A program made the position numbers and the translations under genes. The notes below the pieces were generated by a model. The model ran no database searches and was not told where the DNA came from. It saw only the letters and a list, made by a program, of their open reading frames with translations. Shown piece after piece: positions 3,928-45,002 of a stretch of DNA of 64,000 nt (its first letter is position 1; every line of letters begins with the position of its first letter). Origin of the DNA: Thermoplasmata archaeon (lineage in GTDB: Archaea > Thermoplasmatota > Thermoplasmata > Sysuiplasmatales > Sysuiplasmataceae); the NCBI GenBank assembly GCA_021806165.1, contig JAJZXY010000009.1:1-64000 (forward strand). The letters are read 5' to 3'.

Positions 3928-4506
3928 ATGCCGGCCGGACCGGGGGGTCCTGTGGAGCATGTCAGTGAGGGCAGACGTAATTGTCGTGTGGAATCGATCA
4001 GGGGGGAGGAGCCTCTGAGCGGCAGGAGCAGGAATATCATAATGATAGTTGTAGTCGCTTCCCTTATCGCTATCAACGTCTACACAGTCGAAACATTCTC
4101 GCTGAAATCGTCAACCCCGATACCAGGTTATCCCTCTGTCTCGTTGGCCTACAGCGGAGGTCAGATGATGATACTGATAAGGGGGGCACTCGGTCCGTAT
4201 ATCTACAATAACATAACAATCAACGGGTCATATGTCAGCTTGACCGGAGGTTCGTTGCCCTTCCGGAATTATACATCAAACGCAATCTACCTTGCAATCA
4301 GCCTGCCTGCCAGGAATGCAACCTTCAACTCCACAGCTCTCGACCTTGCAAACCACGAGGTCTACTACTTCAATGCGACGGTCTCTGTCAATCTCTCTGC
4401 GCGGTCTACGGACACCGTGTACAGTTTCAGCGGCGGGGAGACAAACTCGGTGGTTCTCGGCACGAGTCCACTGGAGAGTCCTATGGAGGGTTACAGCTAT
4501 GCCTAA
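3928..4506 (+). CDS. Membrane-anchored extracellular protein
   Basis: The 192-residue protein has a hydrophilic N-terminus of about 35 residues and one membrane helix (NIIMIVVVASLIAINVYTV, about 37-55). The Ser/Thr/Asn-rich beta-type outer domain has at least six N-x-S/T sequons, as expected of a glycosylated archaeal surface protein. A TATA-like ttctataat at about 3903-3911 suggests a leaderless start at the ATG at 3928. Its last bases overlap the start of the next gene by 8 nt, so the pair is probably translated together and may form one complex. No family is recognised. Confidence 0.65.
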   Translation: MPAGPGGPVEHVSEGRRNCRVESIRGEEPLSGRSRNIIMIVVVASLIAINVYTVETFSLKSSTPIPGYPSVSLAYSGGQMMILIRGALGPYIYNNITINGSYVSLTGGSLPFRNYTSNAIYLAISLPARNATFNSTALDLANHEVYYFNATVSVNLSARSTDTVYSFSGGETNSVVLGTSPLESPMEGYSYA

Positions 4507-4807
4507 AATATCATTGGGAGCAGCTTCGTGGATAGCGGTGGTTGTCATTCTTGCAGTATCGGAGATACTCCAGGTAACTGGGATTGTAAAGGTTACCAAC
4601 ATAGTTGCCAACTTCTATCTTTTCATGTTCTCCCTGGTGATTATTTCGGTGCTCGCGGTCGTTGGTGCCATCTTCCTGGGCATTACCATAGCGCACAGGA
4701 TTCTCGAGAGCAAGGATTTCACCCCTTTCGAGGAGGAGATGCTTTCGATGAAGGAGCAGGTAAACAGGATTGAGAAGATGCTTGACGAGCAGAGCAGGGT
4801 GAAGTGA
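4499..4807 (+). CDS. Two-helix membrane protein with coiled-coil tail
   Basis: The 102-residue protein starts MPKISLGAASW inside the end of the preceding gene (8-nt overlap). It has two hydrophobic segments (about residues 9-28 and 38-66) and then a charged helical tail (EEEMLSMKEQVNRIEKMLDE) that looks like a short coiled coil. The longer frame upstream is a shadow of the preceding gene. With its neighbour it makes a small two-gene membrane operon of unknown role: an outside-facing sugar-coated domain and an inside-facing coiled coil. Confidence 0.65.
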   Translation: MPKISLGAASWIAVVVILAVSEILQVTGIVKVTNIVANFYLFMFSLVIISVLAVVGAIFLGITIAHRILESKDFTPFEEEMLSMKEQVNRIEKMLDEQSRVK

Positions 4808-4808
4808 C

Positions 4809-5789
4809 TCAGGCAAGCCTTTCAGGGCACGCTTCCCTTCTTGAGCAGCCGGCGCACTTCCCTGCCCTCCTGTGGTTGCGGTGCGCAGCGCCTGCCTCTA
4901 TGCATGCCTTCATTTCCCCGGCCTTTGAGACCAGCAGCCTTTCGAGATCGTCGTCAAAGTCTATCGCATGCTTTTCGCTGCCGTAGTAGATGTATCCAAA
5001 ATCTGGCCTTGTGCCGTAATTGTCCTCCACAAGCCTGCAGTAGGCGGAGAGCTGCATGATGTGTGAGAAGAGCGGCCCCGCAGGCTTCCTGCCCGACTTG
5101 AACTCGCACGGTATGATCTTTCCATCCTCCTCGACTATGAAGTCAGGCTTTCCTGAAAACAAGCCATCAGAAGAATAGAGAACAGGGTGCTCGTCATCGC
5201 CTACGTACACCACCTTCCCCTCGACCTTCCTCGCCCTCGATATCTCGGCTGCACTGCGCTCCGCGGTGATTGTAAAGTGGAGATATATGCTCGCGCCAAT
5301 GAGCCAAATGAGCGAAACACTTTCAATTGCATGAGCCAGATACGTGTTGACCTGCAGCGTGCTGATTGAAATGAGTGCAAACAGGACCGCCGCAACAGCC
5401 ATATAGATTACCCAGCGCTCCCCGGCACTTCCCCACCTGAACTGCCTTCCTGCAAGGTAGAGTAGCGACACCGCAATGATCAGCCAGAGGACGGCGAGTA
5501 TGAGAAGCAGCCTTGAAACAACGAGCTTCCCGTTGAAATCCAGCAGGGAGACGCCGAGTACGGCAAGGAAGGTGGAGATGAGTGCATAGTACATTATCAT
5601 CCTGCTGTAGAGGGCGGCATTGTGCTTGTTCTGCGAAAATGCAGTCAGGTCGCTGTTCAGCTCCAGGTGCCTTCCGGTGCCAGCGGCGGTCACGGGACTC
5701 GCCCCGTCGCCCCTGACTCCAAGCCACCAGCTGAGCGGACAGTAGGAGAACTTCTCCACATCACCGGCTGAAAAGGGCGGGGCGTTCAT
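4809..5789 (-). CDS. Cas4/RecB-like Fe-S nuclease with four inserted membrane helices
   Basis: The 326-residue protein has Cas4-family landmarks: an N-terminal FSYCPLSWWL with Cys17, G-x3-H (His41), the PD-(D/E)xK core with Asp216 (GKPDF) and E229-x-K231 (CEFKSG), then Q246/Y250, and C-terminal Cys312, Cys315 and Cys321 (CAGCSRREACP). These are the expected four Cys ligands of a 4Fe-4S cluster. Between His41 and Asp216 lies an extra stretch of about 120 residues with four hydrophobic helices (about 65-84, 90-112, 128-146, 155-175). Ordinary Cas4 is soluble and about 170-220 residues. No cas genes or repeats are nearby. It precedes no recognisable partner except the TPD nuclease-like gene just upstream on the same strand. 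The domain call is firm; the role is unknown. Confidence 0.8.
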   Translation of the reverse strand: MNAPPFSAGDVEKFSYCPLSWWLGVRGDGASPVTAAGTGRHLELNSDLTAFSQNKHNAALYSRMIMYYALISTFLAVLGVSLLDFNGKLVVSRLLLILAVLWLIIAVSLLYLAGRQFRWGSAGERWVIYMAVAAVLFALISISTLQVNTYLAHAIESVSLIWLIGASIYLHFTITAERSAAEISRARKVEGKVVYVGDDEHPVLYSSDGLFSGKPDFIVEEDGKIIPCEFKSGRKPAGPLFSHIMQLSAYCRLVEDNYGTRPDFGYIYYGSEKHAIDFDDDLERLLVSKAGEMKACIEAGAAHRNHRRAGKCAGCSRREACPERLA

Positions 5790-5835
5790 CCCGTGATTCT
5801 CGCCCTTGTCGGTTAAATAACGTTCTGTCTGCTTC

Positions 5836-6618
5836 TCACGGGCTGCCTTTGCCGTTCGAGCTCAGTGTTTCCTCAAGCCTGTCCAGGACATTGCTGTCGC
5901 CTATAATCACACGGCCGTCCCCCCTGATGTCATCAATGATGCCGAACCAGTACAGGACAAGCCCGTCGCCGAACAGGTCCACATACTGGTGGAACTGCTT
6001 CCTGTTGTTCCTCCTGATCTCAATGTCATCTCCGAATGATGCCTTCGAGTCAATCCATTTGATCTTGAGCCCTTCAAAGCCGACAGGCTCATCCAGGAGG
6101 AAATCCGGCGTCTTGGGGAACTTTCCGCGAAGATCCTTCTCAGTCTGGAATGTTATGCCGTGGTCAACGAGCCATTTCGACAGCTTCTCCTCGCCGAGTA
6201 TCCCCCTCTCCTTCTGCACCTGCGAACCCTCCGGGGAATAGAGTATGTCCGCCTTCCTGATCCCCTCCATCTCGCTCCTCAGCCTTCTGTCGTTGACGGT
6301 TTCGGGCTCCCTCACCATCTTCCAGAATTTCTTCCTGCCTATGCCGCTCTGGTTGCTGAGTATGAGTCCCAGCAGTATGGGTGGAAAGTTGAGTCTCCTG
6401 GCAATCTTGACCATTGACTCCCCCTTCTGCCATCTCCTCAGGAGCGAAGGCGCCATTTCCACTATCTGGTAATAGTCTTTTGTGGCGTAGCGGACAGTCT
6501 TCTGCGTATAGACGACAAGCATGAGCTCTTCGGGAAGGCCAGTCCGCTCCGCCTCCCTCTTGATGTCCTCCGGCCGCTTCAGCGAATAGTATATGTCTGA
6601 GTATGTTTCTCTCTTCAT
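5836..6618 (-). CDS. TPD-motif nuclease-like protein (CDIN1/C15orf41 family)
   Basis: The 260-residue protein has an N-terminal helical part with HTH-like segments (IARRLNFPPILLGLILSN, about 73-90). The C-terminal domain carries the TPD signature: GEEKL near 142-146, KTPDF at 169-173 (Thr170, Pro171, Asp172) and WIDSKASFGD at 188-197. This is the archaeal homologue of human CDIN1, a protein linked to congenital dyserythropoietic anaemia and predicted to have a restriction-endonuclease-like fold. Asp172 and D190-x-K192 fit that active site. It lies 46 bases upstream of the Cas4-like gene, same strand, so the two may share a transcript. Confidence 0.8.
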   Translation of the reverse strand: MKRETYSDIYYSLKRPEDIKREAERTGLPEELMLVVYTQKTVRYATKDYYQIVEMAPSLLRRWQKGESMVKIARRLNFPPILLGLILSNQSGIGRKKFWKMVREPETVNDRRLRSEMEGIRKADILYSPEGSQVQKERGILGEEKLSKWLVDHGITFQTEKDLRGKFPKTPDFLLDEPVGFEGLKIKWIDSKASFGDDIEIRRNNRKQFHQYVDLFGDGLVLYWFGIIDDIRGDGRVIIGDSNVLDRLEETLSSNGKGSP

Positions 6619-6766: not shown

Positions 6767-7438
6767 ATGACTCAGCTGAATCTTTTCACGTCCGAGGATA
6801 TACCGCCTTGGCTGCCGCCGCAGGCAAAGGAGGCCAGGAGCCATGTATTCTGGGCGCAGATAGTGGCGTTCATTGAGATACCTGTTTCAGTATTTCTGAC
6901 GGTGCTGTTGCTCTATTACTATTTCAAGTACTCGGCACCCTCCTACATACTGATCAACCCCAATTCAGGAACGCTCGCAGGCGCGTTCTTCGCATTTGCC
7001 ATGTATTTCGTGGCAGTGGTGGTTGTATCTGTCCTTGAGGTTGTATTCATACGCGTTCATATTTCAAACCAGATAGACAGCGGCAAGTTCGTTGCCGCCG
7101 AGGAGAGGGCAGTCCTCTGGGGCGTGCTCTCCATACTCTTCGGACTTATCCCCGGCATAATGCTTGTCGCCTCCGCTGTCAGCCTCAGGGATCTCAACAA
7201 GCATGCGACATCCGTCAGGGAGATGCCGCAGGAGGTCCAGAAGGAGCAGCAGCCGCAGAAGCAGCCTGAGCCCGCCCCCGCAGTTCCTCCGCCGAATTCT
7301 CCTCCGCCGAGGCAGCAGCAGTTCTCAGTTCCTGCTGCATCGAAGCAGCACCCGGACATGGTGAAATGCAAGAAGTGCAACGCCTCCTACCCTGCATTCA
7401 TGCACTCATGCCCTAACTGCAACGAACCTAAGAACTAA
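6767..7438 (+). CDS. Membrane protein with C-terminal zinc ribbon
   Basis: The 223-residue protein has three hydrophobic segments (about residues 28-52, 68-92 and 119-137), a long Pro/Gln-rich linker (about 155-190), and a C-terminal zinc ribbon CKKC...CPNC. The layout (membrane part, flexible linker, single zinc ribbon) is common in archaeal proteins of unknown function. The stop overlaps by four bases the end of the convergent UPF0248 gene. The ATG at 6767 follows the AT-rich divergent promoter region by about 50 bases. Function is unknown. Confidence 0.7.
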   Translation: MTQLNLFTSEDIPPWLPPQAKEARSHVFWAQIVAFIEIPVSVFLTVLLLYYYFKYSAPSYILINPNSGTLAGAFFAFAMYFVAVVVVSVLEVVFIRVHISNQIDSGKFVAAEERAVLWGVLSILFGLIPGIMLVASAVSLRDLNKHATSVREMPQEVQKEQQPQKQPEPAPAVPPPNSPPPRQQQFSVPAASKQHPDMVKCKKCNASYPAFMHSCPNCNEPKN

Positions 7439-36834: not shown

Positions 36835-39377
<2,543 letters not shown>

Positions 39378-40778: not shown

Positions 40779-40890
40779 AAATATTGGGGACCAGGTTTGA
40801 GACACCGAACGCGATGATTGTGGGCAGATCCGGAAAGATCGACATAAAATGTTTATCGTGCCCGGATTTTCCTGTCATATCAATACTATT

Positions 40891-42153
40891 ATGAAAATTG
40901 AGTCGGAGAAGAGTAAGGCTGGCAGTCGGGGAAGTATAATAAAGTATCACTTTCTGACCTTTGCTGCCGCGGCTTCAGGAATATTCCTCGCTCTTCTGGC
41001 TGCATTTATCGGCTCTAAATATTCATTTGATTATTTTGCCGGACAGAATTCATCTTCCGGTCTGTTTTACGTCCATCCGGTAATGGAAGTGTTTGGCTTC
41101 CTTACGCTTTTTATTCTTGGAGTATCATACGTCGTTCTTCCCAGATTCAAGAACGCGGAACTCGGTCACAAAGGCGCCGCAGCGCTTTCAATTATACTCC
41201 TGTTTTCAGCAAACTCATTATGGTTATACAGGACACCAACATTGCAGGCATCAGGCGACATTCTCTTTATACTGGCCTCTGTAACATCCCTCGCGCTGCT
41301 CGCACCCGTTCTTGGTAAGCCAAAAGGGCCTCTTGCAGTTGCAGAGCCATTCTTCTGGCTTTCGCTTATTTCACTGATTCTTGCTGGACTTATGAAACTT
41401 TATTTCAACGTGTTCCTGCACAGGGCAGGCTGGAGCTCCTTTCCATTTCTGGAAATCACACTTTTCGGATTTCCTGCAATGATGGTTTTCGGCGTTGAGA
41501 CAAGAACAATACATTTCAGGTTTGTGAAACTTAACAAGCGGTCGCTGATGCTTTCATACCTGGCAGCATCCGTCTCGATAGTGCTGACAGCTCTCTCGAT
41601 GTTTCTGCCGCAGGACGACAATTTCCACCTTATTCCCGCGGTAACAATACTGTGGAGCCTCAGCGCCCTGCTATTCCTCTACGGAATCAGAATTTTTCAC
41701 TATTATGTGCAGCCAGAAGTCATGAACCGTATGAATGAGCGTGACAGAAGCAGATATTTCTACTTCAGGGACGCTTCGTCGGTGGCAGGCGCATGGCTCA
41801 TTGCAGGTCTGCTTTTCGCCCCTCTGTTCGTGTCGATGGTTTCATTGCATTCCGCTGATGCGCCGTGGATCCGGGATGCGTTTATACACGCCCTCGGCGT
41901 TGGCTTCCTGCCGGTCAGTATCATGTCGTTCACTCCAACGCTTTTGGTCTCGGTCCTGGCAAGAAGGGCCCCCTACAGGGGACTGAGCAGCATCCCCATC
42001 CTGATATATACGCTTGGAAACGCATGGCGGATATCAGTTGATGTGTTCAATGCGGCGGGTTTGAACGGCCTGTCTGCGTCCGCACCCTATTCTGTAATTC
42101 TTTCCGCAACAGGTTTTGCCATGTTCATCGTCATGCTTTTCAGAATGAGATAA
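40891..42153 (+). CDS. NnrS-like multi-helix membrane protein
   Basis: The roughly 420-residue protein has about 12 membrane helices. Two His-containing segments fit NnrS, a haem- and copper-containing protein tied to nitric-oxide stress and denitrification: HPVMEVFGFLTLFILGVSYVVLP near the N-terminus, and FIHALGVGFLPVSIMSFTPTLL near the C-terminus. The ATG at 40891 (MKIESEKSKAG) is preferred because the upstream ATG at 40849 lies right on the TATA box. It is the first gene of a same-strand cluster (to 45580). Base composition is more AT-rich than in the housekeeping genes. Confidence 0.72.
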   Translation: MKIESEKSKAGSRGSIIKYHFLTFAAAASGIFLALLAAFIGSKYSFDYFAGQNSSSGLFYVHPVMEVFGFLTLFILGVSYVVLPRFKNAELGHKGAAALSIILLFSANSLWLYRTPTLQASGDILFILASVTSLALLAPVLGKPKGPLAVAEPFFWLSLISLILAGLMKLYFNVFLHRAGWSSFPFLEITLFGFPAMMVFGVETRTIHFRFVKLNKRSLMLSYLAASVSIVLTALSMFLPQDDNFHLIPAVTILWSLSALLFLYGIRIFHYYVQPEVMNRMNERDRSRYFYFRDASSVAGAWLIAGLLFAPLFVSMVSLHSADAPWIRDAFIHALGVGFLPVSIMSFTPTLLVSVLARRAPYRGLSSIPILIYTLGNAWRISVDVFNAAGLNGLSASAPYSVILSATGFAMFIVMLFRMR

Positions 42154-43057: not shown

Positions 43058-44287
43058 GTGTGTTTGAAAAAGCAGGTTAGGATTTTCCTGGCATTCTCAA
43101 TACTCTTTATGGTGGTTGGCCTTCTTGATGGCGTTTTCAGGCTGATGGCAAGGGAGAGCATAACGACATCTGTCTTCACCGGAATCTACGGTTTCCATCC
43201 GCTTCTTGTCGTATTCGGCTTCATTGCTGTCATAATAATGACGGAAAGGGTAGCAAGTTTAACGACACTTGAATCCATTTCGGCAGGGCGAAGATCCATG
43301 CTTTCCCTGATGGTTCCGTTCACAGTTCTGGGAACCATACTTGTGACAACCGGAATTTCCCTCAGTTCCGTTCTCCTCTCCTATTCCGGCGTGTTATTTC
43401 TCCTGCTTGGCAGCACTCTGTTCATCGCAACACTGAAACTGCTTTCCGGTCTCTCCAATATGAAAACATCGTTCAGATTCATGATACTGTCCGGCATCGA
43501 TCTGTGGACTACCGAACTCCTTTCCCCTGTATTCGGAGTTACCTATCCGGTTGGCTATGATATGCTGCTGCTTTCATTCCCTGTAATATTCATCATAGGT
43601 GAGAGGATAGAACTCACCCGATTCATTTCACAGGGCTATTCCGAAAATCGGTTCAAAACATCCTTGGCGCTCTATGCCATGTCCACTGCGCTGTTCATGC
43701 TGTCGTTGCCCTTCTCTATGGTGGAATACAGATACATGCTTGTTGCTGCAGGCATCATACTGATGGCAATCGGCACAGCGTCTGTCTATGTCACCGAACG
43801 GAGAAACCTGAACATCCTGTCCAGATCCGCGATGCCGCTGCAGAGATATGTCTCGATGCATACGAGGATAGCATATGCCTGGCTCTTTCTGGGCCTCATT
43901 CTCTCGCTGATTTATCTTCTGAGTTTCGGCAGCGTAGACACGCATGACGTTTTCATACATGCGATTGCAGTGGGCTTTGTGCTCACTATGATTCTCGCAC
44001 ATGGCCCGATAATTATGCCAACCGTTGCGGGAAGAAGATTGAAAACAGACAGATTTTCGCCTGTTCCGCTGCTGCTGCTTACTGCTGGAAATGCCGTCAG
44101 GGTCGGAGGCGGGGCAGCGCAGCTGTTCGTCAGCATCCCCATAAACAGCATTCTTGTCGGCCTTTCAGGATGGCCGGTATTCGCCGCACTTATAATATTC
44201 ATGCTTGAAGTCATGATGAAGTCTGAAAAGAGTGTGAGGAACGGGGCGAAGGACACAGTGAAGGGTCAGACAGACAACAGGTCTTAA
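43058..44287 (+). CDS. Second NnrS-like membrane protein
   Basis: The 409-residue protein has about 12 membrane helices and the same two landmarks as the first copy, in divergent form: GFHPLLVVFGFIAVIIMTERV near the N-terminus and FIHAIAVGFVLTMILAHGPIIMP near the C-terminus, where His residues could bind haem. The start is a GTG. The 171 bases before it carry no convincing promoter, so it may be read from the DUF2249-cupin gene. Two distinct NnrS-like proteins in one cluster suggest different roles, for example sensor and transporter, or two subunits. Confidence 0.7.
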   Translation: MCLKKQVRIFLAFSILFMVVGLLDGVFRLMARESITTSVFTGIYGFHPLLVVFGFIAVIIMTERVASLTTLESISAGRRSMLSLMVPFTVLGTILVTTGISLSSVLLSYSGVLFLLLGSTLFIATLKLLSGLSNMKTSFRFMILSGIDLWTTELLSPVFGVTYPVGYDMLLLSFPVIFIIGERIELTRFISQGYSENRFKTSLALYAMSTALFMLSLPFSMVEYRYMLVAAGIILMAIGTASVYVTERRNLNILSRSAMPLQRYVSMHTRIAYAWLFLGLILSLIYLLSFGSVDTHDVFIHAIAVGFVLTMILAHGPIIMPTVAGRRLKTDRFSPVPLLLLTAGNAVRVGGGAAQLFVSIPINSILVGLSGWPVFAALIIFMLEVMMKSEKSVRNGAKDTVKGQTDNRS

Positions 44288-44351: not shown

Positions 44352-45002
44352 ATGCACGGTAGGAAAATGATCGAAGTTAGGATAGAGGTGGATCTTCCAG
44401 ACAACTGGGTGAAAAATATCAGCACCGAGCATTCATCCAAAATCAGGATAATGGACTTAAGGGGGACGAGCAAGGACCGGCAAATCCAGGACTTCGTCGA
44501 AATCACCACAACAGCCCGGATCAGAGAGCTTTTTGATGTGTTCTCCCGCTTGGATGGAATAAGCGGAGTGGATCTCGTCCAGATAGAGCCAAACAGGATA
44601 ATGGGCGCCATAACCACGGACAGGTGCCCCATCTGTTCCATATTCGCCGGTCCGAACTGTTCCGTCATTTCGGCAGAAAGCAGGGGGGGAGGGAAGATGG
44701 AGTGGAACCTGCTTATCAGCGGATCTGAAACGCTCAACATGTTGTCTGAAAGGATGAATGAAGTCAAACTGAATTACAAAGTGGTCTCTGTCAGGAATCT
44801 CAAATCAAAAAGGGAGCTGACAGCCCGCCAGCATGAAATAGCCAAAATCGCGTTTGAACTTGGCTACTTCGACTTCCCCAAAAAGATCACTCTCGTCAGT
44901 CTCTCGGAACGCCTGCGCATAGCTCCTCCCACACTCTCGGAGATACTAAGGCGGGTGGAAAAGAATGTGCTTGCCTTCTATTTTCAGACCAGGTGGAATT
45001 AA
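44352..45002 (+). CDS. Bat-type HTH regulator with Cys-rich centre
   Basis: The 216-residue protein ends in a bacterio-opsin-activator HTH domain (HTH_10, about 152-205: LTARQHEIAKIAFELGYFDFP to SERLRIAPPTLSEILRRVE). The N-terminal sensory part includes CPIC at 92-95 and Cys103, a CX2CX7C set that could hold an Fe-S cluster or metal. Haloarchaeal NarO, which controls denitrification genes, has the same plan of cysteine motif plus Bat HTH. By position it is the likely regulator of this cluster. A TATA-like ataataaac at about 44330 precedes the ATG; a Met five residues in is an alternative. Confidence 0.82.
   Translation: MHGRKMIEVRIEVDLPDNWVKNISTEHSSKIRIMDLRGTSKDRQIQDFVEITTTARIRELFDVFSRLDGISGVDLVQIEPNRIMGAITTDRCPICSIFAGPNCSVISAESRGGGKMEWNLLISGSETLNMLSERMNEVKLNYKVVSVRNLKSKRELTARQHEIAKIAFELGYFDFPKKITLVSLSERLRIAPPTLSEILRRVEKNVLAFYFQTRWN

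Follow-up and report, generated by a model that had tools for sequence, protein, structure and literature searches.

The window, the stretch of 64,000 nucleotides analysed here, is part of the ordinary chromosome of the Thermoplasmata MAG G000 (1.88 Mb, 95.9% complete) and contains a gene for a membrane-inserted nuclease of the Cas4 type, preceded on the same strand by a gene of the TPD family (Table 1). For the membrane-anchored solo-Cas4 family to which the former belongs we coined the label mCas4 in this analysis. The two open reading frames were recovered with the strand and spacing given in the preliminary description, and the nearest named relative at the mCas4 locus is Candidatus Sysuiplasma superficiale. 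A chance origin of the mCas4 reading frame is excluded because full-length relatives, including the transmembrane (TM) part, turned up in about 30 family-level groups, with 33-70% identity, when 200 genomes of the class were searched. Farther along the window, reading by eye revealed a catalase-peroxidase-like (KatG) gene (36835-39015), two multi-TM proteins resembling NnrS-like ones (40849-42153 and 43058-44287) and a regulator-like gene (44352-45002).

Table 1. Genes around mCas4 and segments of the mCas4 protein, in window coordinates
Feature	Coordinates	Strand	Remarks
Single-TM or lipoprotein-anchored protein, extracytoplasmic beta-sandwich	3928..4506	+	8-nt overlap with the next gene (4499..4807)
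Small membrane protein, ~102 aa	4499..4807	+	Convergent with mCas4; hydrophobic N-terminal two thirds, charged C-terminal tail
mCas4	4809..5789	-	Membrane-inserted Cas4-type Fe-S nuclease by sequence, 326 aa
C-terminal HRNH motif and three Fe-S Cys, residues 303-323	4821..4883	-	C312, C315, C321 invariant in 39/39 alignment rows
PD-(D/E)XK core, residues 186-290	4920..5234	-	D216, E229, K231, Q246, Y250
TM hairpin unit 2, residues 119-178	5256..5435	-	Homologous to unit 1; hhalign probability 98.9, E 1.6e-17
TM hairpin unit 1, residues 58-116	5442..5618	-	Hydropathy and hhalign
N-terminal cytoplasmic segment, residues 1-57	5619..5789	-	Fe-S Cys17 and catalytic-type His41; separate gene in f9/f17
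TPD-family (CDIN1/C15orf41-like) predicted nuclease, 260 aa	5836..6618	-	Pfam TPD match; 46 nt upstream of mCas4
Membrane protein, C-terminal zinc-ribbon-like motif	6767..7438	+	Divergent from TPD; lineage neighbour (cluster 5)

Family assignment and predicted fold of mCas4

The Pfam profile Cas_Cas4 (PF01930) matches residues 201-321 of mCas4 (E 5.2e-9, 36.8 bits against a cut-off of 22.7), and matches were also obtained with PDDEXK_1 of Pfam (E 8.6e-9) and with the PADLOC Cas4 model (E 5e-18). With TIGR00372, the equivalog of CRISPR-associated Cas4, the protein scored 61.8 bits, slightly below the cut-off of 65, and so is not assigned to it. The profile match, the catalytic landmarks, the four cysteines and the fold are those of the Cas4 family (PF01930 / COG1468), while the coding of mCas4 outside CRISPR loci and its mostly vertical inheritance are those of solo-Cas4. 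Judged by its sequence, mCas4 is a Cas4-family member of the solo-Cas4 group, distinct from CRISPR Cas4.

Substitutions at the Fe-S and catalytic residues are rare or absent, and an Fe-S cluster is predicted. The complete set of Cas4 landmarks announced earlier (Cys17, His41, D216, E229/K231, C312/C315/C321) was found at the positions claimed. In an alignment of 39 homologues from about 30 families, no variation was seen at C17, H41, K231, Y250, C312, C315 and C321 and very little at D216, E229 and Q246, and the HRNH motif (303-306) immediately before the C-terminal cysteines was unusually conserved. A few members deviate at catalytic positions (D216N at L069, E229D at L010 and L052); the protein encoded at L069:9323-10300, with Asn at the D216 position (GKPN), is possibly inactive or altered.

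The AF2 model of mCas4 had a mean pLDDT of 77.9. In the core (190-300) most values exceeded 90, whereas the TM bundle and the segment with the C-terminal Cys were modelled with lower, only moderate confidence. Its top Foldseek match was I-C Cas4 (8.5e-6, probability 1.00), and the other top PDB matches were MGME1, SSO0001, Dna2, Pcal_0546, an Argonaute-associated Cas4 and AdnAB. The nuclease domains of MGME1, Dna2 and AdnAB have the RecB-type PD-(D/E)XK fold in common with mCas4 but are without TM hairpins and have different partners. MGME1 is not known to carry an Fe-S cluster. The PDB matches by sequence profile were of the Cas4 type only (8d3l, 5e-6; 4ic1, 7e-6; 7mi4; 4r5q), and the E, K, Q and last three Cys of mCas4 align to 8d3l. 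With the Cas4 of CRISPR adaptation (PF01930; PDB 8d3l, 4ic1, 4r5q) mCas4 shares the Cys, His, D, ExK, Q and CxxC...C residues as well as the fold by profile and Foldseek; it differs in having no cas1/cas2, in scoring below the TIGR00372 cut-off, in its membrane insert and in coexisting with a separate soluble Cas4.

Membrane insert and natural split forms

The four hydrophobic helices described earlier as splitting the Cas4 landmarks lie at residues 65-83, 94-112, 127-145 and 158-176 and also appear as four helices in the AF2 model. The insert separates the Cys/His segment from the PD-ExK core and has the same site in all mCas4 relatives. Its two hairpins represent a duplicated unit of about 60 aa, as found in one hhalign comparison, and neither matches the nuclease core; elsewhere in the same genome no convincing further unit was found (best other E 0.1). 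This internal repeat was absent from the preliminary description. The relatives carry one, two or four hairpin copies: by a simple hydropathy count there are two TM helices in families f35 and f44, eight in f2, f15, f40 and f60, and four in most. That the number is always even is our reading of these heuristic counts, in which, at the threshold used, 18 proteins gave three segments and a few gave five or one. On the mCas4 tree at least seven changes among the states 2, 4, 8 and split are required.

In families f9 and f17, and for a second copy in one f26 genome, mCas4 is split into two abutting genes (L174, L176-L181, L183-L185 and L188). The N-half comprises the YC...H segment followed by one TM helix at its end, with hardly any tail, whereas the C-half opens with its single TM helix, after which come D, E-x-K, Q, Y and the three Cys of the C-terminus; the break point is the outer turn of a hairpin. 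The f26 genome in question (G095) has a full four-TM mCas4 (L064) in addition to the split copy (L183). If Cas4 chemistry holds in the split lineages, the Fe-S cluster must there be common to two chains.

On average, the loop between TM2 and TM3 contains 3.5 Lys and Arg residues per protein and the outer loops 1.1 and 0.4. These positive-inside counts, together with the split at the outer loop of a hairpin, place both ends of mCas4 and its soluble parts in the cytoplasm, and thereby back the earlier proposal of a membrane-anchored nuclease core that faces this compartment. We are highly confident of the architecture and topology so described, a repeated-hairpin insert with both ends of the protein on the same side.

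Inheritance and genomic neighbourhood

Across the phylum Thermoplasmatota, 252 of 390 genomes gave an mCas4 match, usually as one copy per genome; the gene is missing from most f6 genomes (all except genus g59) and from part of f17. In one scan of genome contigs, the best 80 of 234 relatives were from Thermoplasmatota or from MAGs labelled only euryarchaeotal or archaeal. In a tree computed without the TM columns nearly every family stays together, and the 40 family labels need 39 changes, the minimum possible, compared with a mean of 60.9 after shuffling. Since the tree keeps the families together, the inheritance of mCas4 is mainly vertical. No relatives of the membrane form were found on viral contigs, and the viral Foldseek matches are ordinary Cas4-like exonucleases; a viral origin was rejected.

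A link to CRISPR adaptation was likewise rejected, as the preliminary description had already supposed: Cas1 is absent from the genome of the window, as from most genomes with mCas4, and the window contains no direct-repeat array. In several Cas1-bearing genomes it is a soluble Cas4 or a Cas4-Cas1 fusion that adjoins Cas1, and two of these genomes (G030 and G008) also carry mCas4 elsewhere.

The gene upstream of mCas4 had been identified earlier as one of the TPD/CDIN1 family, which its Pfam match bears out (PF14811, E 2.5e-39, 134.7 bits, cut-off 27). The TPD-motif residues T170-P171-D172 and S191-K192 are invariant in 46 members. It is a separate gene, which mCas4 does not require. The pairing anticipated in relatives was found in part: TPD immediately precedes mCas4 on its strand, at a distance of 10-190 nt, in 35 of 111 mCas4 genomes from seven families; genomes of other families have the two genes apart or lack one of them. 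The 15 f7 and four f13 genomes with mCas4 all gave no TPD, nor was it found in the mCas4 genomes of f10, f24 and f26; in many other families it is on another contig or far from mCas4, and f6 genomes lacking mCas4 contain it. The divergent arrangement of the membrane protein gene at 6767-7438 to TPD is conserved in the TPD-linked families.

On the other side of mCas4 is a convergent pair of genes that had gone unmentioned in the preliminary description. The small membrane gene of this pair adjoins mCas4 in 53 genomes of 11 families and is a more frequent neighbour than TPD. Its product occurs in 89 of the 200 genomes, and all 89 also have mCas4 or its split form, a co-occurrence that is weak evidence because few independent events are involved. 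Most TPD-linked families are without the gene, and it was rejected as a universal partner on these grounds. Neither gene of the pair matches a Pfam family at the cut-off, no PHROG families were found for the neighbour genes, and the beta-sandwich protein (AF2 pLDDT 84) gave generic Ig/FN3-like matches only, none at E <= 0.001. The pair is also present at L158, outside the class.

In families f14, f18, f21, f23, f24 and f27, the gene immediately preceding mCas4 on its strand codes for a PLD-LTD protein predicted to bear a signal sequence and to be secreted. The proteins at L050, L053, L054, L061, L065, L120 and L145 combine an LTD with two PLD domains, and both HKD motifs were read by eye in that of L120. 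Over whole genomes the PLD-LTD protein does not track mCas4, and it was rejected as a universal partner, being absent from the family of the window (f1) and found without mCas4. No neighbour gene of mCas4 is obligatory. The genes around mCas4 differ from lineage to lineage and for this reason do not establish its role.

Role of mCas4 and its relation to known Cas4 proteins

From the known biology of Cas4 (PMC5704561), its cores contain an Fe-S cluster and act on single-stranded DNA by cutting or resecting it. It is likely that mCas4 is an active DNA exonuclease. On balance, we favour the view that it is a membrane-embedded, CRISPR-independent solo Cas4-family nuclease whose substrate, single-stranded or linear DNA, is met on the inner membrane face. 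A 4Fe-4S cluster on the cytoplasmic side would be enclosed by the Cys/His segment and the nuclease core, giving a membrane-held exonuclease for single-stranded or flapped DNA resembling Cas4 and MGME1, with the hairpins as an element of anchoring, orientation and assembly; a copy number ranging from one to four speaks against their forming a channel. Such an enzyme would most likely trim or clear single-stranded or linear DNA appearing at the membrane as a housekeeping function, and candidate substrates may be damaged or stalled chromosome ends or incoming foreign DNA. The near-universal occurrence and vertical inheritance of mCas4 point to clearance or repair as a housekeeping task more than to dedicated defence or uptake, a preference that we put forward as plausible but tentative.

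It is unlikely that mCas4 instead serves in constitutive defence, as a possibly vertically inherited first-line nuclease breaking down the DNA of viruses or plasmids on entry through the membrane. Its core is related to the PADLOC Cas4 and DruK models, solo-Cas4 has been proposed for uncharacterised defence or repair functions (PMC5704561), and a location at the inner membrane face suits interception at entry; yet the near-universal, usually single-copy and vertical occurrence, which weakens the earlier suggestion of a defence role, is unlike that of patchy defence islands. Moreover, no defence gene was recognised beside the gene of the window, none recurs in the annotated neighbour clusters, and the membrane form is without viral relatives. 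We consider distinctly unlikely a part for mCas4 on the cytoplasmic side of a route of DNA import or nutrient DNA, with PLD-LTD as the outer enzyme and the small membrane/beta-sandwich pair. The PLD-LTD gene upstream in six families and the convergent small membrane gene in 11 are in keeping with it, but the former is missing in the family of the window and occurs in genomes that have no mCas4, many mCas4 families have no small membrane gene, and the variable hairpin number speaks against a channel. ComEC was found in none of the 200 genomes, which goes against the uptake role considered earlier and is a weak test, ComEC being a bacterial family. For the pilus or vesicle link also raised there, no such genes were seen at the locus.

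The view of the preliminary description, that mCas4 and TPD form one two-nuclease system, seems very doubtful to us. Their adjacency and common direction in seven families, and the invariant TPD motif, would agree with it, but the upstream partner alternates with the PLD-LTD protein or an MtnA-like gene, and TPD was not found in the mCas4 genomes of f7, f10, f13, f24 and f26, is distant in many others and occurs without mCas4 in f6. Since each gene occurs without the other, an obligate two-nuclease module is not supported and was rejected. Highly improbable, finally, is a TM insert that merely anchors a degenerate, non-catalytic Cas4 relative: the few members that vary at D216 or E229 would fit, whereas the alignment shows no change at C17, H41, K231, Y250 or any of the four Cys, and the landmarks are retained across the split pairs. 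An extension of our favoured reading, of a nuclease handling DNA at the inner membrane face, would make mCas4 the cytoplasmic nuclease of an unrecognised membrane machine of Thermoplasmatota for DNA entry, exit or chromosome-membrane processing. In it the hairpin repeats would set the oligomeric assembly, the small membrane and beta-sandwich proteins would be partners in the membrane and on its outer face, and two families would have an obligate two-chain enzyme with an Fe-S cluster common to chains joined through the membrane; this, too, we hold to be improbable.

With the archaeal solo-Cas4 proteins (Hudaiberdiev et al. 2017, PMC5704561) mCas4 has in common the Cas4 core, the lack of a CRISPR link and mostly vertical inheritance, and differs from them in carrying TM hairpins that separate the core from the Cys/His segment. 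The main text of that paper mentions neither "transmembrane" nor Thermoplasmata, Methanomassiliicoccus or Aciduliprofundum, and our searches of open-access papers found neither a membrane Cas4 architecture nor a two-chain form, both of which, as far as this literature goes, are apparently new within the Cas4 family.

Cas4 has mainly been studied as a soluble nuclease of CRISPR adaptation, and a membrane form occurring phylum-wide makes the role of solo-Cas4 testable. Embedding in the membrane would fix the site of action of the enzyme, and it predicts clear knockout and localisation phenotypes. The natural split version offers a means to test assembly and is the strongest bench lead for a shared Fe-S cluster. 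In addition, mCas4 indicates that an Fe-S nuclease tolerates membrane hairpins being inserted, multiplied and split.
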